45,122 bases of DNA from a virus, in IMG/VR virus record IMGVR_UViG_3300009085_001558, positions 1-45,122 of that record. One strand, given 5' to 3'. Positions 3,957 through 35,052 of the stretch are shown piece by piece. The position numbers and the translations under genes are program-made. The notes beneath the pieces were generated by a model, which had not been told where the DNA came from, did no database searches, and worked only from the letters and a program-made list of their open reading frames with translations. How positions within the stretch are numbered: the first letter of the stretch is position 1; every line of letters starts with the position of its first letter.

Positions 3957-6433
3957 GAGAATTTCCGGAAGTTGTAAACGGGTACGAACTGACCGAAGCC
4001 GAGTTTGGGATCATCGTGCCTACCCGCGAGGATACGACGAACCTTGTCGAGAACCCGTCTCTGGAAACGAATGTCGATGGGTACAACGCTATGGCAGGAG
4101 CCGTGGCGCGGGTCGCGGAACATTCGGCATTCGGGACTTACGCGCTGAAGTGTACTCCCGGTGCTGGCCTGAATGACGGTTGCTATTACGAATACGTCTC
4201 TCTGGAAAACGAGAAGCAGTATTTCTTTTCCGTCTATTTCTACGGTGGAGACATCGGGCAGAAATATCGGATTTACTTTGCTGATAATATAGGGGGACGC
4301 AAGGGTGCGTACAAGGAATTCAAAGCCACGGGTCAGATGCAACGGATATTCGTGTCTTGGGCGTGCGAATATACCAGCGATTTGTTCCGGGTCTACGTCG
4401 TAAAGTCCAATCATGCGGGAATCTTGCCGTTTTATTGCGACGGCTTTCAGGTCGAGAAGGCGTTCTATACTACGTATATAGATGGGGACCGACACGGGTT
4501 CCTGGCGGATCGGGCGGATTACTACTGGAACGGGATTGCGCACGAGTCAACTTCCGTCCGGATCGCACAATCTCGACATGGAGGCAGGGAAATGAAACTG
4601 CGCGATTTGGGCTTTTCACTTCTGGCAATGGTTGGACTTGGCTTGGGCGGGTTCCAGAGCCGGTATCCTACGCTGGCAACCGGAGGAGAATTCTACGACG
4701 GGACGTATAAGGTCGGACGGAACTTCGCGCTCGTGGGTGCTGTAACGGGCTCTGGATACAACGTCCTGCGCGGCCGGTTGGGAGAGTTGTACGAATTGTT
4801 CTCCCCGGATTATGTCTCTCCTACTCAGCCAGTCAATCTAACTTTCCGGGATAAACGGTGTGGGGAAAATAGTCTGTTCTTTACCATCCCCTGTGTGTTC
4901 GAGGGTGGCTTGGACGACGAACTGAATAACTACCATCAGCAGAGAATATCTCTAAACTTCCATGCGTATCTTCCGCATCTGACAGAGGGAGAGACAGAGG
5001 TTGGGTATCAACTTGCGTTTACAAAATATCATCCCAATGCAGATCCGGCAGCTCTTGTTGATACGATTGTTTTTAGACAATCAGACGGAAGATTTACAAC
5101 CGTCGCGTCTGTAGTATCATCCGCTAGTATCGCGTATTACCGTGGAGAATTCTATTACTGCGATAACTTAAACTTAGAAATAAAAAAAATCAATCCAATC
5201 ACAGGAATTGTCACTACTGTAGCCACATTTGATTCTCAGGTAAATATTCTAATTGCTAGAGGAGAATATTTATATATTGGAGGAACATTTAGTACCATAG
5301 ATGGAAATCCGTTTGAGCTTGTTGCGAGATACGACGGATCAACATGGACGCCATTAGGTACTGGAATTACTTATGCTGGTGCTGTTATCGACATGAAATT
5401 TTCTAATGATGGAACGTTATATATTGCTGGATTGTTTACTTTTCCAGTAGGTAATAAAGGCGTTTGCTATTACCGAGACGGAACTTATTATCCCATGAAT
5501 GGAGGCGTGGAGTTTACTCCTCCGGCATCGCTTGGCCCAGTGGCTATTGCTATCGGTAATGATGGAAAAATATGGGTTGGGGGTGACTTTGAGGCACTTA
5601 ATGATGGATCATCCACTCCGGTTGGACACATTACATATTGGGAAGATGGATCATTACACGATATAACTGGAGTTAATGATACTGTTTATGGCATATTAGT
5701 TGATGACGAAGGAACAGTATACGCTGGAGGTGAATTTACATCTACTGAAGGTGGACCTGCTAATGCGGTAGAACATATTGCGTCTTGGGATGGAAATACT
5801 TGGCACGAACTAGATTCTGGAATACCAGAGACTGATGTCGTATTTTCTATGAAGGAAATTCCAGAAGGGATAGCCATTAGTTTTCAGTATGATCCATTAG
5901 TCGTTGGGGATGATTACCAATTCCCCTCGGGATCGGCAATTTGGAATGGATCGGCACTCGTTCCGTATGATATTTCTACCGATAGCGATGAAGACGTATA
6001 CAGAAATCAAGTATCCTTTCCATATAACTATATGTTGGCTGGATTATGTAGTACATCCAATCAACATAACATCTCCACAGCCGAGGTCACAGAGATAACG
6101 AATCCGGGGAACGTAAATTCCTATCCCGTAATTACTTTCAAGGGTCCGGGCGTCCTGCGGTCCATAAAGAATCTTTCGACGGGTAAATTTATCTGGTTCT
6201 ATCTTGTACTTCAGGACGGCGAGATTGTCGAACTATCAACCGACCCAAGCAATATCTACATGGATTCAAACCTGCGGGGGAATGTTTTGGAGACGGTCCT
6301 TGCAGGGTCCAACCTTACGGAATTCTATTTGAAGCCGGGGAAGAATAATATCTCTCTATTCATCAGCAAATACACAGGCGCGAATACTGGCGCATCCCTG
6401 CGGTTCACGCTTAAGAACGGGTCTCTCCCATGA
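3953..6433 (+). CDS. Distal tail (Dit-like) protein with N-terminal CBM-like domain and inserted propeller
   Basis: This 826-residue protein overlaps the tape measure gene by ATGA. Residues ~20-190 resemble a carbohydrate-binding jelly roll (opening NLVENPSLETN). Residues ~205-340 and ~700-826 look like the two halves of a siphovirus distal tail protein. Between them lie propeller repeats such as LYIGGTFSTIDGNPF and RYDGSTWTPLG, in the style of Kelch/delta-60 repeats. The insert is visibly richer in A/T than its flanks, suggesting it came in as a separate module. The likely role is joining the tube to the baseplate while displaying two glycan-binding domains. The Dit assignment is inferred from position and end domains. 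Confidence 0.7.
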   Translation: MREFPEVVNGYELTEAEFGIIVPTREDTTNLVENPSLETNVDGYNAMAGAVARVAEHSAFGTYALKCTPGAGLNDGCYYEYVSLENEKQYFFSVYFYGGDIGQKYRIYFADNIGGRKGAYKEFKATGQMQRIFVSWACEYTSDLFRVYVVKSNHAGILPFYCDGFQVEKAFYTTYIDGDRHGFLADRADYYWNGIAHESTSVRIAQSRHGGREMKLRDLGFSLLAMVGLGLGGFQSRYPTLATGGEFYDGTYKVGRNFALVGAVTGSGYNVLRGRLGELYELFSPDYVSPTQPVNLTFRDKRCGENSLFFTIPCVFEGGLDDELNNYHQQRISLNFHAYLPHLTEGETEVGYQLAFTKYHPNADPAALVDTIVFRQSDGRFTTVASVVSSASIAYYRGEFYYCDNLNLEIKKINPITGIVTTVATFDSQVNILIARGEYLYIGGTFSTIDGNPFELVARYDGSTWTPLGTGITYAGAVIDMKFSNDGTLYIAGLFTFPVGNKGVCYYRDGTYYPMNGGVEFTPPASLGPVAIAIGNDGKIWVGGDFEALNDGSSTPVGHITYWEDGSLHDITGVNDTVYGILVDDEGTVYAGGEFTSTEGGPANAVEHIASWDGNTWHELDSGIPETDVVFSMKEIPEGIAISFQYDPLVVGDDYQFPSGSAIWNGSALVPYDISTDSDEDVYRNQVSFPYNYMLAGLCSTSNQHNISTAEVTEITNPGNVNSYPVITFKGPGVLRSIKNLSTGKFIWFYLVLQDGEIVELSTDPSNIYMDSNLRGNVLETVLAGSNLTEFYLKPGKNNISLFISKYTGANTGASLRFTLKNGSLP

Positions 6434-7620
6434 CGGATGTTTACGCGGTTCATATCCATGATGACGTAGGGAACAGGCTTGCCATTCCGAAGATAGAAAA
6501 TCTCCGTTATTACCGGACGGTCAATGGTCTTGGATCATGTACGATAAACATGCCAGCGGACGCGGTTCCGGATTATTGCCTTAGAAGAAATAACATCATT
6601 GCAATCTGGAGACTGCCGGAAGTAGGTTCCCCGCAACTTGCCACGCAGACGCTATGGTTCCTCCGCAAGACAACCGAAAAAGACTCCGGCGAGAAACGAT
6701 CCCTGTCCATCACGGCATACGACCTGAATTATCTTCTTGCGTCTCCGATGGGGAACGTCGGACGTATTACGGCTTACTACGCCGGTTCCGCACAGGCCGC
6801 CAAGACGGATAATGCGGACGACATGATAAAAGCAATCGCCCGTCAGAATTTCGGACAGGCTGCGGTTGATTACAACGCCAACACGCGCAAGACGCCGTTC
6901 CTGGATATCGATGCAGATTATGCCCTTGCTCCTTCGATTAAAAAGTCCTTCGCTTGGAGAAATATTGCTCAAACGTTTTCGGAAATATGCAAAACGTCGT
7001 ATGAGAACGGAACGTTCCTCGCGTATGATTTCGTCGTGGCTATTCCTCCAACGGGTGTCATTCCAGAACCTACTTCTGCGGACTGGTGGCCTGCGTCTAC
7101 ATCTCAATTCAGGATTGTATTCAAGACGTTTACAGGACAACGGGGAAACGACCACACGAGGGACGGCGGAGATCCCGTCCTATTCGGTATCAAATACGGA
7201 AACTTGGATAACGTTGTTCTGACCAAGGATTACTCCGAGGAAGTCAACGATGTGTACGTTGGCGGAAACGATGTATGCGCGGCGCGAGAGATTGTCAGGG
7301 TTTCGCAATCCGGGACAATTGTTGACGGATGGATTTGGAACAAGCGCGAGAAATTCGTCAACGCGGTAGGGATTGATACGGTTCCGTCCCTTACCAACGA
7401 AGGCGAATCGGCAATCAAAAAACCTTTCATCTCATTTGAAGGTGATATAAAATCCACTCCCAATTGTCAGTATGGAAGACATTGGGGATGGGGCGATAAA
7501 GTATCTGTTGAATTCCGGGATTATTCCTTCGATGCCTGGATTAATAAACTTACCGTCTACTGGTCCTTGGAAGAAGGCGAAACGATTTCTTCTTCTATCG
7601 CTGCGGAAGGTGAATTATGA
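6430..7620 (+). CDS. Siphovirus Gp37-like tail-associated (baseplate hub) protein
   Basis: This 396-residue protein is coupled by ATGA to the distal tail gene. The start (TDVYAVHIHDDVGNRLAIP), the central ITAYDLNYLLA segment and the late VYVGG and VSVEFRDYSFDAWI segments fit the ReqiPepy6 Gp37-like family. That family replaces the gp27/Tal hub in many actinobacterial and Chloroflexota phages. It would form the ring at the tail tip through which the tape measure and DNA leave. No lytic domain is visible, so peptidoglycan entry activity must lie elsewhere. Confidence 0.75.
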   Translation: MTDVYAVHIHDDVGNRLAIPKIENLRYYRTVNGLGSCTINMPADAVPDYCLRRNNIIAIWRLPEVGSPQLATQTLWFLRKTTEKDSGEKRSLSITAYDLNYLLASPMGNVGRITAYYAGSAQAAKTDNADDMIKAIARQNFGQAAVDYNANTRKTPFLDIDADYALAPSIKKSFAWRNIAQTFSEICKTSYENGTFLAYDFVVAIPPTGVIPEPTSADWWPASTSQFRIVFKTFTGQRGNDHTRDGGDPVLFGIKYGNLDNVVLTKDYSEEVNDVYVGGNDVCAAREIVRVSQSGTIVDGWIWNKREKFVNAVGIDTVPSLTNEGESAIKKPFISFEGDIKSTPNCQYGRHWGWGDKVSVEFRDYSFDAWINKLTVYWSLEEGETISSSIAAEGEL

Positions 7621-13229: not shown

Positions 13230-13262
13230 TTTTTATCCTTTCTGTTAGTTGTATTGCTCCAA

Positions 13263-13322
13263 ACCAGACCTCGCCACGCCATGCCCCACCTTGCCTCACC
13301 TTACCTTGCCATGCCTGGCCTC
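13263..13322 (-). repeat. Pentanucleotide array A, (GGYNN)12 on the minus strand
   Basis: Read on the minus strand (the transcribed strand here), GGC or GGT occurs at exactly 5-base steps for 12 consecutive units with no exception, followed by a final GGA. The two bases between are variable. The array begins within the stop codon of the 186-residue gene and ends about 30 bases before the next start. It ends in GGTCTGGTTTGGA, matching the ends of arrays B2 and C. It lies inside an operon, so it would be transcribed. GG every 5 bases could form two-tier G-quadruplexes. Confidence 0.85.
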
Positions 13323-13881
13323 ATTTACTGGTTTTGCATTCATCCAAGGCTTCACGGGCGACTTTCAAATAATCCTTCTTATCAGGAGGAGCAATAGCCA
13401 TCAACTTATCCAATCTGGAAAACGTCTCCAATAGCAAACATGAAAATTCATCTCTTTCAACATCCTCAATCCCTCGGTCCTTTCGGATCTGTTCGTGGAT
13501 TTCTTCGCTTGTCCATCCCTGTCTAGTTTTCAAGAGAAGGTATTTGATCTTCTCATTATCCGGTAGGCTTCGCACAACGCCCATGTCGGAGATGTAGAGC
13601 GGATATTCACCCTTCACCGCAACCCGGATGGAGCGCGGGACACTCTTGGTAATGGACTTGTAATTTGATAGCGTTGCGGATTGTTGCTCCGGGAAGTAGA
13701 CCAGATACTGCGTCCAGTCTCCTTCAAAGACCTCTTCCAACTCATTGAGCAAGTCCCCGATTTCGATAGGAGACATGCGGTTCTTGTACGCCACTTCCTG
13801 CGTGAGAACCTTGGCCTCCGCATGATTGGGGGCGCGGTTGAAAGCCAATCCGAATTCGTCTGATGTGTACCAGGCTGTCAT
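13321..13881 (-). CDS. Hypothetical protein, possible ParB/KorB-type HTH
   Basis: A 186-residue protein. The middle (SATLSNYKSITKSVPRSIR, then ISDMGVVRSLPDNEKIKYLL and KTRQGWTSEEIHEQIRK) resembles the helical DNA-binding region of ParB-like and plasmid-partition proteins, but the match is by eye and weak. It is coupled to the RNA ligase gene by a 4-base overlap. Its stop codon is the first part of pentamer array A. It may bind DNA or the replication machinery; function is unproven. Confidence 0.45.
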   Translation of the reverse strand: MTAWYTSDEFGLAFNRAPNHAEAKVLTQEVAYKNRMSPIEIGDLLNELEEVFEGDWTQYLVYFPEQQSATLSNYKSITKSVPRSIRVAVKGEYPLYISDMGVVRSLPDNEKIKYLLLKTRQGWTSEEIHEQIRKDRGIEDVERDEFSCLLLETFSRLDKLMAIAPPDKKDYLKVAREALDECKTSK

Positions 13882-14780
13882 AAATCCTCCTTCGTTTCAA
13901 ATGCTGATTGCGCGAGTTGATCCTTGTACCATTGTGGAATTCCAGCGATGACACCGCGCTTAATCATCGGCCAGAAGTGCGAGAATAGACGCTGTTTGAT
14001 TTCGTCTTCGCATTCCTTCAGGATGTCATCCGGGATTTCGCGGATGATAATGGCGATGTCGCGCAGGTTTCCTTCCAGTCTGCCGTTCTCCCGGAGATGC
14101 TGAAGGGCTTTAGTCCACCGCGCTTCGCTCCGATACTGCATGATGAGCGTTTGCACTACATCGGATTGGGTCGGGTTTCGTTTGCGCCAGTCAACACCGT
14201 TTTCTTCCTTGAATTTCTCGCTGACGTATTTTCCAGCCGCGAATTTCTTTTCCGCAGTCATCAGCGTGTAGTTCTTTACCACGACCCCTTCGATCTTCGT
14301 ACCGCCAAGGATGCTTTCGCGGTCCAAGAAGGACTGGAACATCTCGTAGTTTTCGACAGTTCCACGGTAGAGCATAGGAACGACTTCCAACCCGATCCGT
14401 GCGGCTTCCGCGGCCTTATCCTCGTAGGTCATGTAATCTTCAAGGCCGGTGCAAACATCGAATAGGATTAGATGCTGATTGGGAACCCGCGCATAAGACA
14501 GGGTATTGTGCTTCGGCTTCTGGAGATATTCACAGCGATAAATCCAGCCGGGATGCAGGTCAAGACTTCGCGCAATCGCCACGGCTTGTTTGAACATTTC
14601 CTCCGGTGCATCCAAGAGCAATTGCTTTTCCTTGGATCGGCATTGCAATTCGCCGTCCAGAATTCCCATTGAGAATTGCGAACCGTCGATCTTTTCTTCG
14701 ACCGTCACTTCTCCGGTGAAGATTGCTCCGATGGTTTTGTGCCCTAGCGCATAGACGGAAGGATAACTGTATATGCCCAT
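13878..14780 (-). CDS. RNA ligase (Rnl2-like nucleotidyltransferase)
   Basis: A 300-residue enzyme. VEEKIDGSQFS carries the nucleophile Lys30 (motif I KxDG). Other motifs follow: WIYRCEYLQKPKHNTLSY (motif III region), KIEGVVVKNY (motif IV) and KYVSEKFKE (motif V lysines). It seals RNA or nicked ends through an enzyme-AMP intermediate. The second ATG is chosen because AGGAG stands 6 bases before it. Phage RNA ligases can repair host-cleaved tRNAs; no polynucleotide kinase is seen beside it. It sits in the replication operon next to SSB. Confidence 0.8.
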   Translation of the reverse strand: MGIYSYPSVYALGHKTIGAIFTGEVTVEEKIDGSQFSMGILDGELQCRSKEKQLLLDAPEEMFKQAVAIARSLDLHPGWIYRCEYLQKPKHNTLSYARVPNQHLILFDVCTGLEDYMTYEDKAAEAARIGLEVVPMLYRGTVENYEMFQSFLDRESILGGTKIEGVVVKNYTLMTAEKKFAAGKYVSEKFKEENGVDWRKRNPTQSDVVQTLIMQYRSEARWTKALQHLRENGRLEGNLRDIAIIIREIPDDILKECEDEIKQRLFSHFWPMIKRGVIAGIPQWYKDQLAQSAFETKEDL

Positions 14781-14789
14781 TGTCATCTC

Positions 14790-15192: not shown

Positions 15193-16575
15193 TTAGAATG
15201 GGATTTGCTGTTCTTCCGGTTCGCGTGGTTCGGATAGTGCTGCGCGTGATTTCGGTTGCGGACGGGAAGCAATGGGGCGCACGCAATCCCCAAAGCCCGG
15301 CCGGTCCAGCTTGCGCACAAGGTTGATTTTCTTCTTGCCCTCTTCGCGGGACTTGGCGAATAGAGCAGTAATCAATTGTGGATTAGGAAGATCACCTTTC
15401 TTATCCGGTATGTGTTCGACAAGGAAGATTAGATTATCTGCGTTGTTGACGTTCTGAATAGGACCACTAAGATGCGCCGTACCGGGGACTTTTTCTTTAA
15501 CACCTTCTTTTGGCATAGTGTGGATTGCCAAAACGTGAATGCCTAACTTACGCGCCCACCGTTTGAGTTCTGTTGTCTGGCGCATTTCTCTTTCGTTTCT
15601 ATCCGTTTCGACATCAACAATCTGACCGATATAGTCAATGATAGCAACGTCTAATTGATTTCTGCGTCTTCGCGCCAGCATGTCATATCCCAACTGTTGC
15701 ATGGACATGGAGGCGTCATCCAAAATAGATATCGGCAATTGGGAAAAGTATTTAGCGGACGGAATAAACTCTGTTGCGAATTGCTCGTTTGTAATCCGTC
15801 CGCTTTTCATCGCGTGGGCGCGAAGTCCGGACTCAAGGTTGATCCACCGGCGCAGTATTTGTTTCGCTGGCATCTCCCACGAGTAGACCGCTACATGAAA
15901 ACCACACTTGGCGATATTTAAGGCGGCTTGGTCACAGAGGGTTGATTTGCCGATACCAGGCTCGCCAGATACAACTGTTAGTTCTCCCGGCTGTAATCCT
16001 CCTAAGAATGTATCGATGTCGATAAGGCCGGTTGGAAAGCCCCACACATCGCGCGGGTCCGCCATGCGCGTTTCGACTTCTTCCCACAGGTCGGAGATTT
16101 GGTCGCTGATTTTGGCTTCCTGAATTCTGGAAGGGGCGATAATGTCAAACGATGACGTTGCTTGTTGTACGGCATCCAAAACCGGGATGGTTGGGTCATG
16201 CGCCAGCTGCGCGATACCGGAAGCGACAATCAGCATCCGCCGGCGGATAGCCTCTTCCTCCACGATATGCCCGTATGCTTCGGCGTGCATGGAAGTTGGA
16301 ACGTTGTTCATTAGCGCAGCCAGATACGCACCACCACCAGCTTCGGCCAACCGTCCCTGTTTATCCAATTCCTCCGATATGGTCAGCGCGTCGATGGGCG
16401 TACCATTTTTGGAACACGTCTCCATCGCTTCCCATATCCACCCATTGCGGTGAATGTAGAAGTCACCCGTATGCAGGAAGGCGGCGATGTCAATATAGAC
16501 GGCGGGGTTAATAAAGACCGCGCCAAGAAGTGACTCCTCGGCTTCTCGGTTCTGTGGATCAGATATAGGGGTCAC
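15193..16575 (-). CDS. dnaB: Replicative DNA helicase, DnaB family, with SSB-like C-terminal tip
   Basis: A 460-residue protein. The N-terminal domain (EAEESLLGAVFINPAVY, ~8-100) and the RecA-like motor are both present. Walker A is GEPGIGKST near residue 205, Walker B is VAIIDYIGQI, and AIHTMPKEG and AKSREEGKKK are also seen. A C-terminal tail of ~40 residues ends EEQQIPF, strikingly like the SSB tip EEESIPF encoded next door. It would form the hexamer that opens the fork. The initiator upstream overlaps it by 4 bases. Confidence 0.92.
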   Translation of the reverse strand: MTPISDPQNREAEESLLGAVFINPAVYIDIAAFLHTGDFYIHRNGWIWEAMETCSKNGTPIDALTISEELDKQGRLAEAGGGAYLAALMNNVPTSMHAEAYGHIVEEEAIRRRMLIVASGIAQLAHDPTIPVLDAVQQATSSFDIIAPSRIQEAKISDQISDLWEEVETRMADPRDVWGFPTGLIDIDTFLGGLQPGELTVVSGEPGIGKSTLCDQAALNIAKCGFHVAVYSWEMPAKQILRRWINLESGLRAHAMKSGRITNEQFATEFIPSAKYFSQLPISILDDASMSMQQLGYDMLARRRRNQLDVAIIDYIGQIVDVETDRNEREMRQTTELKRWARKLGIHVLAIHTMPKEGVKEKVPGTAHLSGPIQNVNNADNLIFLVEHIPDKKGDLPNPQLITALFAKSREEGKKKINLVRKLDRPGFGDCVRPIASRPQPKSRAALSEPREPEEQQIPF

Positions 16576-30178: not shown

Positions 30179-30442
30179 ATGATAGACTGGCCGAAATTGC
30201 TGATAATGGCAAGTCTCGCGGCGGATGTTGGGGTTAGCGAACGATACGAACGCCTAAGAGACTGGATCGCCAACCGCATCAACAAGAGATTAGCAGGGTA
30301 TGAGGCGATGAAAAAAAGTGCAAGATACATAGAATGCGGAAAATGGATTACGGTTGGAGATATAGAGCTATTACGAATGGCCGGAGACAGTTTGTTAGAT
30401 GTTGCCCAGAAAGCCGAGGCTGACTATGAAGAAAATCATTGA
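30179..30442 (+). CDS. Hypothetical helical protein, 87 residues
   Basis: GGAGATAGCC before the ATG. Helical with several basic patches (ERYERLRDWIANRINKRLAG) and an acidic end. No domain recognised. Its last 17 bases overlap the small RHH-like gene. Confidence 0.5.
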   Translation: MIDWPKLLIMASLAADVGVSERYERLRDWIANRINKRLAGYEAMKKSARYIECGKWITVGDIELLRMAGDSLLDVAQKAEADYEENH

Positions 30443-30584
30443 TAACATCCGCAAGCGTGGCCGTCCAAAGAAGAAGGAGCAGATGGTATCCATTTCCGTG
30501 CGGATATACCATTACCAGAAGGTAAAACTGGAGAAGATGGGCGATAAGGGCGCGGTCATCAGACAATTGATTACGGATGCCTGA
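30426..30584 (+). CDS. Small DNA-binding protein: AT-hook-like N-terminus plus ribbon-helix-helix
   Basis: 52 residues. KRGRPKKKEQ is an AT-hook-like motif, then VSISVRIYHYQKVKLEKM and KGAVIRQLITDA fit the strand and two helices of an Arc/MetJ-type fold. It lies directly upstream of a strong promoter and structured leader, so it may autoregulate or control the HNH gene. It is also a candidate binder of the palindromes (speculative). Confidence 0.6.
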   Translation: MKKIIDNIRKRGRPKKKEQMVSISVRIYHYQKVKLEKMGDKGAVIRQLITDA

Positions 30585-30596
30585 ATGTGGTATAAT
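30567..30596 (+). promoter_or_regulatory. Extended -10 promoter before the structured HNH leader
   Basis: A perfect TATAAT with an upstream TGG (extended -10) and a TTGATT 18 bases before it. Transcription would begin near 30603, exactly at the first stem of the inverted-repeat leader. Confidence 0.65.
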
Positions 30597-30721: not shown

Positions 30722-31144
30722 ATGGATCCAGATGTTCGCAAGGCACGAATAGAACTGGACGGATGGGAATGCCAACTGAGCAAACTATTTGGCATAACTG
30801 AACTATCTGGTAAACCATGCACCGAGGCATTGGAGGTTCATCATAAGACCTATGTACGGTTTGGACATGAACATTTATCCGACGTAATAACTGTTTGCCG
30901 GAGATGCCATGATATTCTGACGGACGCCATACGGCGAGAGCGGTTCTCTACCCGCAATCCGATTTTGGAGAACGTCAAGAATCCTATGGAAGTACCGGCC
31001 AAGGAGAATAGCAATGTTCACGAAGTTGAAAGTAACGATCACCGGGGACACACCGTTTATCCCCCACAACGCGCAACTTGCCGATCCTCTGAATCCCTTT
31101 ACGAAGGCAATCAAGGAAGTGTCGGGAAAGCGCAAGAAGGTTGA
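30722..31144 (+). CDS. HNH endonuclease (homing-type candidate)
   Basis: 140 residues. KPCTEALEVHHKTYVRFGHE, then LSDVITVCRRCHDILT, gives the two-His site and zinc Cys; the CELS-type N-terminal Cys is in WECQLS. The ATG with AGAGGTG just before it is chosen. The last 131 bases overlap the next gene, and the C-terminal part past residue ~97 may be dispensable. Directly behind a structured leader with its own promoter. Confidence 0.7.
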   Translation: MDPDVRKARIELDGWECQLSKLFGITELSGKPCTEALEVHHKTYVRFGHEHLSDVITVCRRCHDILTDAIRRERFSTRNPILENVKNPMEVPAKENSNVHEVESNDHRGHTVYPPQRATCRSSESLYEGNQGSVGKAQEG

Positions 31145-31589
31145 TGCGGACTTGGAGGAAATGGCAAAGTTGGAGTTCTTGGGAAGTTTGTATCTCTCGG
31201 ATGGTAAGCCGTGTATCCCCGCCGAAATGCTGGAAGCGGTAATCAACGGCGGAGCGCGAAAGAGTAAGATGGGTAAACAGGCATCGGCGGCTGTGTTTAT
31301 TCGGAAGCCTGCTATGCTGGAATACGATGGACCGTCCGATCCAAAAAAGTTGTGGGAAGACAAAGAATTTGTTCTTCGCGTTCCCGTCAAGGTCCAACAA
31401 GCGATGGTAATGCGCACTCGACCCATTTTCAAGAAATGGTCAGCCTCTTTTGAGGTTGATGTGAATACCGACATCGTGGATACAAAAGACGTTCTGCAAT
31501 GGATCACGACTGCCGGGGTCGAGTTGGGAATTGGGGATTGGAGGCCGCAGAAGCGGGGGCACTACGGTCTCTTTGTCCTAGCGGAGTAG
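31014..31589 (+). CDS. Conserved phage protein of unknown function, 191 residues
   Basis: Starts at ATG with AAGGAG 6 bases before it, inside the HNH gene. Conserved-looking blocks: PHNAQLADPLNPFTKAIKEV, LGSLYLSDGKPCIPAEMLEA, VMRTRPIFKKWSASFEVDV and GVELGIGDWRPQKRGHYG. I recognise the pattern from many phage genomes but not under a functional name. The Gly-rich end suggests a nucleic-acid or nucleotide contact (inference). Array B begins 11 bases after its stop. Confidence 0.6.
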   Translation: MFTKLKVTITGDTPFIPHNAQLADPLNPFTKAIKEVSGKRKKVDADLEEMAKLEFLGSLYLSDGKPCIPAEMLEAVINGGARKSKMGKQASAAVFIRKPAMLEYDGPSDPKKLWEDKEFVLRVPVKVQQAMVMRTRPIFKKWSASFEVDVNTDIVDTKDVLQWITTAGVELGIGDWRPQKRGHYGLFVLAE

Positions 31590-31601: not shown

Positions 31602-31669
31602 GGTGCGGCTTGGTCCGGCAAGGTAAGGCTGGGTGGGGTTTGGCTTGGCATGTCAGGGTTAGGCTTGGG
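31602..31669 (+). repeat. Pentanucleotide array B1, (GGYNN)14
   Basis: GG-pyrimidine recurs every 5 bases in 12 of 14 slots (exceptions GTC and a final GGG). It contains the words GGTCCGGC and GGCAAGGT shared with other arrays. It begins 12 bases after the stop of the upstream gene. The phase continues across the 22-base spacer into B2 (distance a multiple of 5). Confidence 0.85.
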
Positions 31670-31691
31670 TTTTCCGCTATCATAAAACCAC

Positions 31692-31754
31692 GGCATGGTC
31701 GGGCCTGGTCCGGCGCGGTTAGGTATGGCGGGGTATGGTCCGGTTTGGTTTGGA
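31692..31754 (+). repeat. Pentanucleotide array B2, (GGYNN)13
   Basis: 12 of 13 slots are GGY at exact 5-base steps and the last is GGA. It ends GGTTTGGTTTGGA, the same terminus as arrays A and C. The spacers after B1 and B2 are alike (TTCCGCTATCATAA and TTCCGACATTATAA). Confidence 0.85.
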
Positions 31755-31775
31755 TATTCCGACATTATAACTTTT

Positions 31776-31857
31776 GGTGAGGCAAGGCGGGGCGCGGTGT
31801 GGCATGTTCGGGTTGGACTGGCATGGTGAGGCGAGGTACGGTTAGGTTTGGCATGGA
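31776..31857 (+). repeat. Pentanucleotide array B3, about 17 units with one 4-base slip
   Basis: 14 of 17 slots are GGY; the phase slips by one base at 31813-31815 and then stays fixed. The last unit is GGA. The first six units (GGTGAGGCAAGGCGGGGC and on) closely match part of array A on the other strand 18 kb away. It ends about 27 bases before the ATG used for GmhA. Confidence 0.85.
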
Positions 31858-31878
31858 GTTACAAATTGGGTGTATGAT
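31848..31878 (+). promoter_or_regulatory. Possible promoter for gmhA giving a leaderless transcript
   Basis: TATGAT ends 6 bases before the ATG at 31885, placing the start of transcription on the start codon. A TTGGCA lies 19 bases before it, inside the end of array B3. No Shine-Dalgarno precedes the ATG. Confidence 0.4.
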
Positions 31879-31884
31879 AAAACT

Positions 31885-32448
31885 ATGACAAAAATTGACG
31901 AATACTTTATGTCTCTCAGCGATACGGCCATTCTCACTTGCCGTCCCTGTATCGAAGCGGCTACAGACATTCTCTATAAAGCATGGCGCAGAGGAAGCAT
32001 GATCTATACCGCCGGAAACGGAGGATCCTGCACCACAGCGCAGCACCTGGCATTGGACTTGTCGAAAGGATGCCGGGTAATCGGAAAGGCTCCGGTACGA
32101 TCCATGTGTCTGTCCGATTCTGCGGAACTCATGGCATGGTCGAACGACGTGAATTACGAGGATGCGATTGCCTTTATGATTCGCGGACGGTGGGTTCCCG
32201 GTGACGTGTTCATTGCCATATCCTGTTCCGGGAAGTCACCGAACATTATCAAAGCCCTGCTTGCGGTCGAAACGCTGGCGGGAAAGGCGATCCTTCTGAC
32301 GGGGAACAACACGGATATCCGGGATGACTTGGCGGACGTGGTTATTCCTGTCCAAGACAACGAGATACGGCGGCAGGAAGATATCCATCTGGCTGTGGCG
32401 CATTGTCTGACTTGGCTATTGAAGCAGAAGATCGAAGCAACACCATGA
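31885..32448 (+). CDS. gmhA: Sedoheptulose-7-phosphate isomerase, GmhA-like (SIS domain)
   Basis: 187 residues from this ATG; a GTG five codons earlier is the alternative. The SIS fold is clear: IYTAGNGGSCTTAQHLALDL (phosphate loop with GNGGS and His54), MAWSNDVNYEDAIAFM, AISCSGKSPNIIKALL and QEDIHLAVAH with the Glu and His of the active site. It converts sedoheptulose 7-phosphate to D-glycero-manno-heptose 7-phosphate. The HAD gene follows, and an HddA-like kinase lies 11 kb downstream. Array B lies before it. Confidence 0.85.
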   Translation: MTKIDEYFMSLSDTAILTCRPCIEAATDILYKAWRRGSMIYTAGNGGSCTTAQHLALDLSKGCRVIGKAPVRSMCLSDSAELMAWSNDVNYEDAIAFMIRGRWVPGDVFIAISCSGKSPNIIKALLAVETLAGKAILLTGNNTDIRDDLADVVIPVQDNEIRRQEDIHLAVAHCLTWLLKQKIEATP

Positions 32449-32455
32449 TGTGCGG

Positions 32456-32535
32456 GGTGTGGTAGGGCGTGGTCCGGCTCGGTAGGGTTCGGCAAGGTAT
32501 GGCTAGGTAGGGTCGGGCTTGGTATGGTTTGGAGG
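32456..32535 (+). repeat. Pentanucleotide array C, (GGYNN)16
   Basis: 15 of 16 slots are GGY at exact 5-base steps with no slip, and the last is GGA. It fills the gap between gmhA and the HAD gene. It ends GGTATGGTTTGGA, the final GGAGG serving as the ribosome-binding site of the HAD gene. Shared words: GGTCCGGC, GGCAAGGT. Confidence 0.88.
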
Positions 32536-32538
32536 AAT

Positions 32539-32964
32539 ATGAAAAAATTGTACGTTTGCGACTTGGACGGCACTTTGACCCCACACCGCGAATCCTCAGC
32601 GGATCCGTTCGTATTGGAATTACTGTCCAACGTCGAGAAGATGATTACTGCACTCCAGGCAAATGGCAAGAAGATAGCCATTGCCACAAACCAACGACTG
32701 AGGGACGAAAGCGATGAGGAATTATCGGCCTTCTGCTTTTGGGTGACGAAGACACTACATATAACGGAGCCCGTCATGGTGGCTACTGAGGTTTCGCCGT
32801 GGATGCTGAAACCGTCGCCGTGCATGATCCTGATGCTGATGCAAAGGTATCGACTATCTGCGGAGGAAGTGGTAATGATTGGCAACTCAAAAGACGACTA
32901 TCTCTCCGCGATGAATGCAGGAGTGGACTTCATGTGGGCGGATGAATTCTTTGGGAGGAAATGA
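32539..32964 (+). CDS. HAD-family phosphatase, GmhB/HisB-N-like
   Basis: 141 residues. CDLDGTLTPH (catalytic Asp8 and Asp10), IAIATNQRLRD, KPSPCMIL (motif III Lys) and VVMIGNSKDDYLSAMNAGVD (motif IV Asp pair) define a HAD-IIIA enzyme. Next to GmhA it probably removes a phosphate from heptose 1,7-bisphosphate. The zinc-loop Cys typical of GmhB are missing, so another sugar or nucleic-acid 3'-phosphate is possible. The ATG uses GGAGG from array C with only a 3-base gap. Confidence 0.7.
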   Translation: MKKLYVCDLDGTLTPHRESSADPFVLELLSNVEKMITALQANGKKIAIATNQRLRDESDEELSAFCFWVTKTLHITEPVMVATEVSPWMLKPSPCMILMLMQRYRLSAEEVVMIGNSKDDYLSAMNAGVDFMWADEFFGRK

Positions 32965-33227: not shown

Positions 33228-33707
33228 ATGGCAAAGAAAAAGTCTGCTAACACGGAAAAAATAAGAAAGAAGACAATTCCTAAATCTGCATGGAAACCTG
33301 GTCAGAGTGGAAATCCTGGAGGACGACCAAAGGATGGAGAATCTTGGGCGGCTTCTCTCAAATGGGCGTTCAATCTTACGGGCGAACAAGCTGCACAATT
33401 GGTTCCTCCGGAATACGCCAAAACATTCCGTTTGATTGGTAAAATGCAACTACGTCATGCGCTTGTTTTGTGCATGATTGGAAAACAACTATTTGATCCT
33501 TCGGGATCTTTATTCAATGCTATGGCTGATAGGGAAGAAGGTAAGATCACTCAACCTATTCTCCACGAATGGCGCGAGGAAGCGAGGAAACTAGGTGTCG
33601 ATCCCGATCAACTCGTCGAACAGTTCTTTGCCTCGGTGGATAGTAGAGTCAGCGTTGGCGGAAGCCCTGAAGCGGAAGAAGGAACAGGCGGACCGTCCGA
33701 AGCCTAG
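33228..33707 (+). CDS. Terminase small subunit candidate (DUF5681-type)
   Basis: 159 residues. Basic N-terminal region then SAWKPGQSGNPGGRPKDGES, the DUF5681 signature found next to many large terminase genes. The rest is helical. The large-subunit gene begins inside its last 113 bases in another frame. The likely role is binding pac or cos DNA and recruiting the motor. No HTH was clearly seen. Confidence 0.6.
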   Translation: MAKKKSANTEKIRKKTIPKSAWKPGQSGNPGGRPKDGESWAASLKWAFNLTGEQAAQLVPPEYAKTFRLIGKMQLRHALVLCMIGKQLFDPSGSLFNAMADREEGKITQPILHEWREEARKLGVDPDQLVEQFFASVDSRVSVGGSPEAEEGTGGPSEA

Positions 33708-35052
33708 TCATTGGCCGAAGCTAACAGAGTATAGAAACTCCGATACCGGTAGGTTCTACAAACCTCACAGCAAGGAAGAATTAGAATTCATAACCAACAA
33801 CACGGCGATGGCTCTACTAGCCCGTGGAGGCGAGGGAGCCGGAAAATCCGTAGCAGGAATTATCAAGTCTTTAGAGTACGCCAAGAACGGATGCCACGGG
33901 TTGTGCGTATCGCCGGATCTTCCACACTTCCGGCGTTCCCTATGGCCTGAGTTCCGCAGGTGGTGCCCTTGGGAGTTCGTGGTGGATCGCCACCAGTATA
34001 TGCAGCCGTTTGATTGGTCACCGAACGGTAACTTTACGCTTGCCTTTACGACGGGCGCGGTCCTATACATGGGTGGTGCGGATGAGCAAGACCCCAAAGC
34101 GCAAGAAGGGGCAAACGTCACCTTTGCGCATTACGATGAGGCACGCAGACATAAGACCGCAACGATATTCAAGACGCTGGAAGGCCGCGTAAGAATTCCA
34201 TGCGGAGGACGGAAGCCGCAACTGTTTATTACCACGACCCCTGCAAAGCATTGGCTGTTCGATTACTTCGGACCGTTACTACCGGACGACAAACTGGCGT
34301 CGTTCAAGGCACGGTCATTGGATGTCATACTCAAGACGGCGGACAACCTGGAGAACCTTGATCCTGGCTTTATTGAGGACCGTCGTTCGGTACTGACAGA
34401 GTCAGAGGCTAGGGTTCTCCTCGAAGCAGAATGGGAAGACATCGAGGATGCGGACCGGTTCTTGCCGTCCATGACGCTGTGGGACATACTGAGGGTCAAC
34501 CTGCCCGCGCTGACCAAGAAGGAACCTATGGTTGTGGCTCTGGACGCCGGTATCAGTTCGGACCAATTCGGTATGATTGGTACGACTAGACATCCGGAAA
34601 GGCATGATGAGTGTGCAATCAGGTTCGTTATGAAGTGGGAGGCAAAAAACGGCAGGGATATCGACTTCGACGGGACGGAGGATGATCCCGGACCACTCAG
34701 GGTCTTGAAAACGCTCAGAGAGTCGTATAATATAATAATGGTTACATACGACCCGTACGAGATGAGGTATGCAGCCAGCCGGATTGCAAAGGAAGCACCT
34801 CTGTGGCTCAAAGAGTTCAGTCAGCAGGGCAAGCGCGAGGAAGCGGACAAGCACCTATACGATCTCATCGTTCAGAAGCGGATTTGGCATGACGGGGATG
34901 CGGACTTGCGGGAACATATCTCGAATGCGGATCGGAAGCTGGTAGCCGAGGAAAAGAAGATGCGTATCGTAAAGCGGATTGCATCGCAGAAGATTGACCT
35001 TGCAGTCGCTTTGAGTATGAGCGCATATCAAACAATGCGCTTGAACATTTAA
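33595..35052 (+). CDS. terL: Terminase large subunit
   Basis: 485 residues. Walker A ARGGEGAGKSVAG (~77-89), Walker B VTFAHYDEARRH, coupling motif ITTTPAKHW, and the nuclease residues in VVALDAGISSDQFG, MVTYDPYEMR and KIDLAVALSMSAY. It cuts and pumps DNA into proheads. The GTG start with GAGG 8 bases before it is accepted; a start after the small-subunit stop would remove the N-terminal ~37 residues. Confidence 0.92.
   Translation: MSIPINSSNSSLPRWIVESALAEALKRKKEQADRPKPSHWPKLTEYRNSDTGRFYKPHSKEELEFITNNTAMALLARGGEGAGKSVAGIIKSLEYAKNGCHGLCVSPDLPHFRRSLWPEFRRWCPWEFVVDRHQYMQPFDWSPNGNFTLAFTTGAVLYMGGADEQDPKAQEGANVTFAHYDEARRHKTATIFKTLEGRVRIPCGGRKPQLFITTTPAKHWLFDYFGPLLPDDKLASFKARSLDVILKTADNLENLDPGFIEDRRSVLTESEARVLLEAEWEDIEDADRFLPSMTLWDILRVNLPALTKKEPMVVALDAGISSDQFGMIGTTRHPERHDECAIRFVMKWEAKNGRDIDFDGTEDDPGPLRVLKTLRESYNIIMVTYDPYEMRYAASRIAKEAPLWLKEFSQQGKREEADKHLYDLIVQKRIWHDGDADLREHISNADRKLVAEEKKMRIVKRIASQKIDLAVALSMSAYQTMRLNI

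Follow-up and report, generated by a model that had tools for sequence, protein, structure and literature searches.

VIPR-type guide arrays in an uncultivated phage, an HNH nuclease gene overlapping vipr, and a guide that resembles the start of the adjacent HAD phosphatase gene

VIPR is a phage weapon related to CRISPR that was described in a bioRxiv preprint of April/June 2026 (PMC13142463). In the preprint's account it pairs Vipr, a small RAMP-family protein with an RRM core and a G-loop, with guide RNAs (vrRNAs) that each carry an invariable, structured 3' tail. A vrRNA is built of 9-16 YNNGG repeats; the GGY stays constant, the hypervariable NN specifies the DNA target with a one-nucleotide skip, and the Vipr-vrRNA complex binds double-stranded DNA by an NNxNNxNN code (PMC13142463). 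RNA expression, RNP formation, DNA binding and repression were demonstrated there for the SUSP1 and P. fulva VIPR, 667 VIPR loci were published, and some guides are described as 'staggered' and overlapping. VIPR types III and V encode nucleases, and the main text makes no mention of HNH (PMC13142463).

The DNA analysed here, referred to as the window, is the whole 45,122-nucleotide stretch of the virus record IMGVR_UViG_3300009085_001558. In this analysis we establish the structure of its GGY arrays, the identity and fold of its Vipr, the linkage of arrays and vipr in locus and strand, the pairing of vipr with an HNH gene, and the skip-1 match and decoding of one guide, vr4. Like the SUSP1 VIPR as described (PMC13142463; PDB 36pp), the window has GGY/NN arrays of 9-16 units that are intergenic and lie beside vipr; the two Vipr proteins are homologous over their full length, and the one-nucleotide skip code reported for SUSP1 fits vr4. 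It differs in having an HNH gene that overlaps vipr, whereas SUSP1-like phages carry vap1 after vipr, a gene without a homolog in the window. In the window no long structured tail is apparent, arrays run up to the Shine-Dalgarno sequence of the gene that follows, one guide matches an adjacent gene, and no exact targets were found. CRISPR type III effectors of the Csm3/Cas7 kind share with the window the RAMP fold and RNA guidance, but there is no repeat-spacer array, no other cas genes were found, and the guide is gapped every five bases.

An earlier note, made from the letters of this DNA, had stated that no described element has this design; that statement is superseded, since the arrays match the VIPR vrRNAs as published (PMC13142463). 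Its suggestion that each unit could be a contact for a modular binding protein came close to the published mechanism. VIPR is already known as a kind, and the HNH pairing and the guide-neighbour homology described below are additions that were not found in the main text of the preprint (PMC13142463). Starting from raw sequence, the guide arrays of a programmable CRISPR-related system that has only recently been described were here rediscovered independently. The window adds an example from an uncultivated phage in which an HNH nuclease gene overlaps vipr and the target gene of one guide can be read from its code.

Uninterrupted GGY runs at exact 5-base steps lie on the plus strand at 31602-31651 (10 units), 31692-31751 (12), 31776-31805 (6), 31820-31854 (7) and 32456-32530 (15), a total of 50 unbroken units over five runs. 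When single broken units are counted into the blocks, 53 of 56 units are GGY. The first block, vr1 (B1, 31602-31666), has 12 GGY units of 13, one unit being GTC, and carries the code GC TT CC AA AA TG GG TT TT AT AG TA TT; vr2 (B2, 31692-31751) has 12 of 12, with the code AT CG CT CC GC TA AT GG AT CC TT TT. The third, vr3 (B3, 31776-31854), has 14 of 16; it contains a broken unit and a single 4-base slip, and is possibly decayed or made of two overlapping guides. The fourth, vr4 (C, 32456-32530), is complete at 15 of 15. All four lie on the vipr strand within 0.9 kb of vipr. A sixth array, vr5 (13261-13320, minus strand), was overlooked in the earlier note; it has 12 perfect units and lies about 18 kb from vipr, between two minus-strand genes and on their coding strand. 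Across vr2, vr4 and vr5 every unit is perfect (39/39).

The earlier count of 53 GGY units was reproduced, its 60 slots reflecting a slightly wider frame than the 56 used here, and the description of the arrays as non-coding, strand-biased, phase-locked and neither microsatellite nor CRISPR is borne out. All arrays are intergenic with GG on the coding (mRNA) strand. Order-1 Markov shuffles of the window gave 0.06 runs with a score of at least 4 per shuffle, the best shuffle score being 4. Tandem Repeats Finder reported only fragments of the arrays, and Rfam and ARAGORN had no matches in the window. As to CRISPR-Cas, the window has no long-repeat array and no cas gene among its scanned proteins, and PADLOC found nothing for the Vipr and HNH proteins.

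The gene directly upstream of the first array (31014-31589, plus strand) encodes a 191-residue RAMP-family protein with a C-terminal glycine-rich loop, GIGDWRPQKRGHYGLF, whose G-loop residues are invariant in the window protein and its relatives. The product aligns with PDB 36pp_D, 'SUSP1 Vipr protein', over residues 5-189, near its full length (E 6.8e-31), and with the unannotated family phrog_4652 (E 6.9e-52). An AlphaFold model, for which the alignment left out rows from plasmid and phage records, has a pLDDT of 93, and in a Foldseek search with it the top-ranking solved structures were RAMP subunits of the CRISPR type III Csm3/Cas7 type (probability 1.00, E 2e-5 and up). By homology and predicted fold this ORF is Vipr. 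A search for close relatives with the Vipr protein alone returned none.

An HNH nuclease gene (30722-31144, plus strand; Pfam HNH with E 2.7e-4, a value at the curated threshold) overlaps the 5' end of vipr out of frame, and is a candidate vipr-accessory (vap) gene. Both ORFs are open and can be aligned to relatives. An HNH gene lies directly upstream of vipr in ten of 164 VIPR loci, one of the ten (L423) being weak; the associated loci include five viral ones (L003, L338, L117, L023 and L277) and Azospirillum plasmids (L140, L146 and L147). These share with the window the order of HNH upstream of a related vipr and mostly the out-of-frame overlap, which with the Vipr domain is 104-143 nt in seven loci, exactly 113 nt in four of these, and none in two loci. 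In a quick tree, HNH-bearing loci cluster around the window Vipr, with 4 label changes against 9.2 when shuffled (0 of 500 shuffles as low). They differ from the window in that the tails vary by locus and that some plasmid loci have few or no recognisable arrays; the large Azospirillum plasmids L140, L146 and L147 have vipr and the upstream HNH gene with few or no recognisable GGY arrays nearby. A Bradyrhizobium plasmid (L141) has a related vipr, and HNH was not detected there. The HNH-vipr-array unit in the window is preceded by a promoter-like site, TTGATT-18-TATAAT (30567-30596, plus strand), a candidate from its 10/12 consensus match with a TG.

The connection between arrays and vipr holds well beyond the window. 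Among viral contigs fetched by the repeat pattern alone, with no protein information and many of the stretches short, 150 of 200 encode Vipr on the stretch fetched (91 of 119 when the selection required 9 or more units, and 59 of another 81 selected at 14 or more). Measured over the first set plus eight annotated phage and plasmid loci and the window, arrays lie a median of 288 nt from vipr, and 90% are no more than 1 kb away. The earlier note had proposed a comparison of strands; in Vipr loci, 467 arrays of at least 8 units are on the vipr strand and 9 on the other, a bias that leaves its reading standing. For cellular genome contigs, a 13-unit scan found Vipr on the fetched stretch in only 5 of 119 (L353-L471), so that for such genomes, a good many of them high-GC, the GGY pattern by itself marks Vipr loci poorly. 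Many high-GC cellular genomes in this set, including those of actinomycetes, have 13-unit GGY runs and no Vipr on the stretch, and these runs are probably other repeats. Some arrays are continuous and very long, with about 140 units in L017 (6311-7010) and more than 50 in L277 (10130-10414, in vipr orientation); L113, L062 and L119 likewise have arrays far over 9-16 units. These are possibly the overlapping guides that the preprint calls 'staggered' (PMC13142463).

The fourth guide lies directly upstream of a HAD-family phosphatase gene (32539-32964, plus strand; HAD_2 E 6e-14, HAD-IIIA E 1.4e-15) that starts with MKKLYVCDLDGTLT, and its 3' end abuts the Shine-Dalgarno-like GGAGG of that gene. 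Read antisense with a one-base skip, vr4 gives (N/K)-M-(K/N)-R-L-Y-(M/I)-(F/L)-D-L-D-G-T-L-T, which is the start of a HAD phosphatase, or in short (K)MKRLY(I/M)FDLDGTLT. At skip 1 the vr4 code agrees with the phage's own HAD start in 23 of 30 bases; with skips of 0, 2 or 3, no position in the window exceeds 17-19. The differences between the code and the own gene (leucine CTN against TTG, F against C, and R against K) are, on comparison of the sequences, those of a different allele, and the window HAD gene appears to be a diverged homolog, belonging to the phage itself, of the gene that vr4 is predicted to target. When the eight central units were searched against 2.9 million viral contigs, 96 matched, about 20 being estimated by chance; 79 of the 96 give a HAD start in frame, the other 17 not. 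An exact vr4 target was not present among the 2.9 million contigs, the best having 26 of 30 bases. One matching contig (L163) has the vr4-code match at 4782-4804 and encodes its own Vipr at 6215-7228 (E 5.5e-33), which may point to a conflict of VIPR against VIPR. Among the guides of the window, vr4 is the one for which the one-nucleotide skip reading gives a predicted target.

Homology between a guide and its neighbour is found in a few other loci. For 406 arrays near a Vipr, the decoded peptide was compared with six-frame translations of the surroundings, the null being the same code against other loci. Within 1.2 kb, z is above 4 for 11 of the 406 arrays and above 5 for 9; window vr4 is the strongest case (z about 12). 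Shuffling the order of the units leaves 0-3 arrays above z 4. Between 1.2 and 5 kb, about twice the sequence, no array is above z 3.5. A simpler test at the nucleotide level agrees, more weakly, in that three of 406 arrays fall below p 1e-3 at skip 1, against none at skips 0, 2 or 3. Thus some guides, though only a small subset, code for a homolog of the gene next to them. Array codes compared at the nucleotide level with all other fetched loci give no excess at any skip. The other cases involve a putative ParB-like gene (L103), clamp-loader gene (L058), 5'-3' exonuclease gene (L066) and zinc-ribbon gene (L435), names that come from a reading of the ORFs and not from a family search. That guides encode homologs of adjacent and not of distant genes offers a testable idea on guide choice and self-avoidance in phages, and may help to predict targets where no rival genome is known.

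As an explanation of the whole, we consider it very probable that the arrays are the guides of a phage-borne VIPR system that repress, or with HNH may cut, rival genomes, and that vr4 is directed against the HAD start of another phage. The arrays would probably be transcribed with the neighbouring genes. Vipr would then coat each array, holding the GGY triplets and presenting the NN pairs, which would base-pair with double-stranded DNA as NNxNNxNN, one base being skipped at each step, normally the codon wobble position. The resulting RNP would repress rival genomes and, with an HNH partner, may cut them, and vr4 would aim at the start of another phage's HAD phosphatase gene while the phage's own diverged counterpart adjoins the guide. 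What the locus does in the window phage, what HNH contributes and why guide and homolog adjoin are points that we infer. Several observations count against this explanation: no guide has an exact target, no long conserved tail of the SUSP1 kind is apparent, vr5 is 18 kb from vipr, and vr1 and vr3 have broken units, because of which the locus may be partly decayed.

The linkage of guide and neighbour could also mean that vr4 and similar guides repress the phage's own adjacent gene and not the alleles of rivals. The position of vr4 directly upstream of the HAD gene, and its pairing with that start at 23 bases of 30, would fit self-repression, which is the main rival for this part of the data; the seven mismatches, however, make the own start a more canonical HAD start and include a synonymous leucine change, as expected of another allele, and 79 viral contigs match all eight central units. 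On balance we regard self-repression as unlikely. Homing-endonuclease marker exclusion in phages links a rival-directed element to a resistant allele of its target. Guidance against rivals could be organised in a similar way, some VIPR loci being guide-plus-allele cassettes. In these the guide would lie next to the phage's own diverged copy of the gene under attack; allele replacement would make the phage immune, a rival with the other allele would suffer repression or cleavage by the linked HNH, and spread of the cassette would be favoured, although we put this forward tentatively and would sooner expect it to fail than to hold. Such a cassette would be an RNA-guided form of marker exclusion. 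Both arrangements pair a rival-directed element with a resistant allele, and the window has an HNH gene, but specificity here would come from the RNA guide. The window is the clearest case found, with vr4 beside HAD and an overlapping HNH-vipr pair.

Readings that do not involve an active guide system fare worse. A dead or decaying VIPR locus, with real remnants that no longer work, would account for the broken units of vr1 and vr3 and for guides lacking exact targets, and yet vr2, vr4 and vr5 are without a fault and vipr and HNH are open frames that align with relatives, making this improbable. The earlier note had proposed that the repeats form G-quadruplexes, acting in RNA or DNA, and a GG every five bases is compatible with such folding. 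The idea finds no support in the arrays: their third base is strictly a pyrimidine, which a G-quadruplex does not need, the ordered NN content decodes to protein, and they travel in tight linkage with the gene for an RNA-binding protein, so we give it very little credence. TRAP binds (G/U)AG triplets every 5 nt, and a leader RNA bound by a TRAP-like ring protein that controls the next gene would share both the 5-nt periodicity and the intergenic leader position. The co-occurring protein is a RAMP, though, the arrays are built on GGY triplets and their target information resides in the NN positions; a TRAP-like leader is hardly credible.

The remaining guides are less informative than vr4. Matches for vr1, vr2 and vr5 are near chance level or ambiguous, with no convincing target, and a scan with vr3 matched mainly one unrelated conserved phage sequence and gave no target. 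A small basic ORF of 52 residues (30426-30584, plus strand), has an AT-hook-like motif and ends in DKGAVIRQLITDA. Under a favourable parsing of the slip, this C-terminus is similar to what vr3 encodes, at a z of 5.5 that depends on how the parsing is done; the comparison is suggestive only, and vr3 may encode a homolog of this ORF.

A gmhA-like SIS isomerase gene (31885-32448, plus strand; Pfam SIS_2 E 8e-15) matches the gmhA model at E 2.8e-23, far below the cut-off of that model. It was considered as a part of VIPR and rejected, having no relative in other VIPR loci, and it is probably cargo outside the system. Elsewhere the window carries genes of a tailed phage, namely an RNA ligase (13878-14786, minus strand), a DnaB-like helicase (15193-16575, minus strand) and a terminase (33595-35052, plus strand). 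Neither tblastn with the terminase nor blastn with the locus gave a match among 50,697 phage records.

The spacers or tails after vr1 (31667-31691, plus strand) and vr2 (31752-31775, plus strand) have a 14-nt motif in common, present as TTCCGMYATYATAA at 31672 and as TTCCGACATTATAA at 31757, and these are its only two occurrences in the window. A long conserved structured tail as in SUSP1 is not apparent; four regions fold no better than shuffles. In L002 (560-1300), L338, L117 and L023, a locus-specific conserved hairpin-like tail follows each array, and tails differ strongly even between close Vipr relatives. In Gordonia phage Trine (L142, 5560-5860), near-identical repeats between the guide arrays look like half a tRNA, namely its acceptor and T-arm part, and ARAGORN calls one odd tRNA there; the guides of this locus may be excised by tRNA-processing enzymes.
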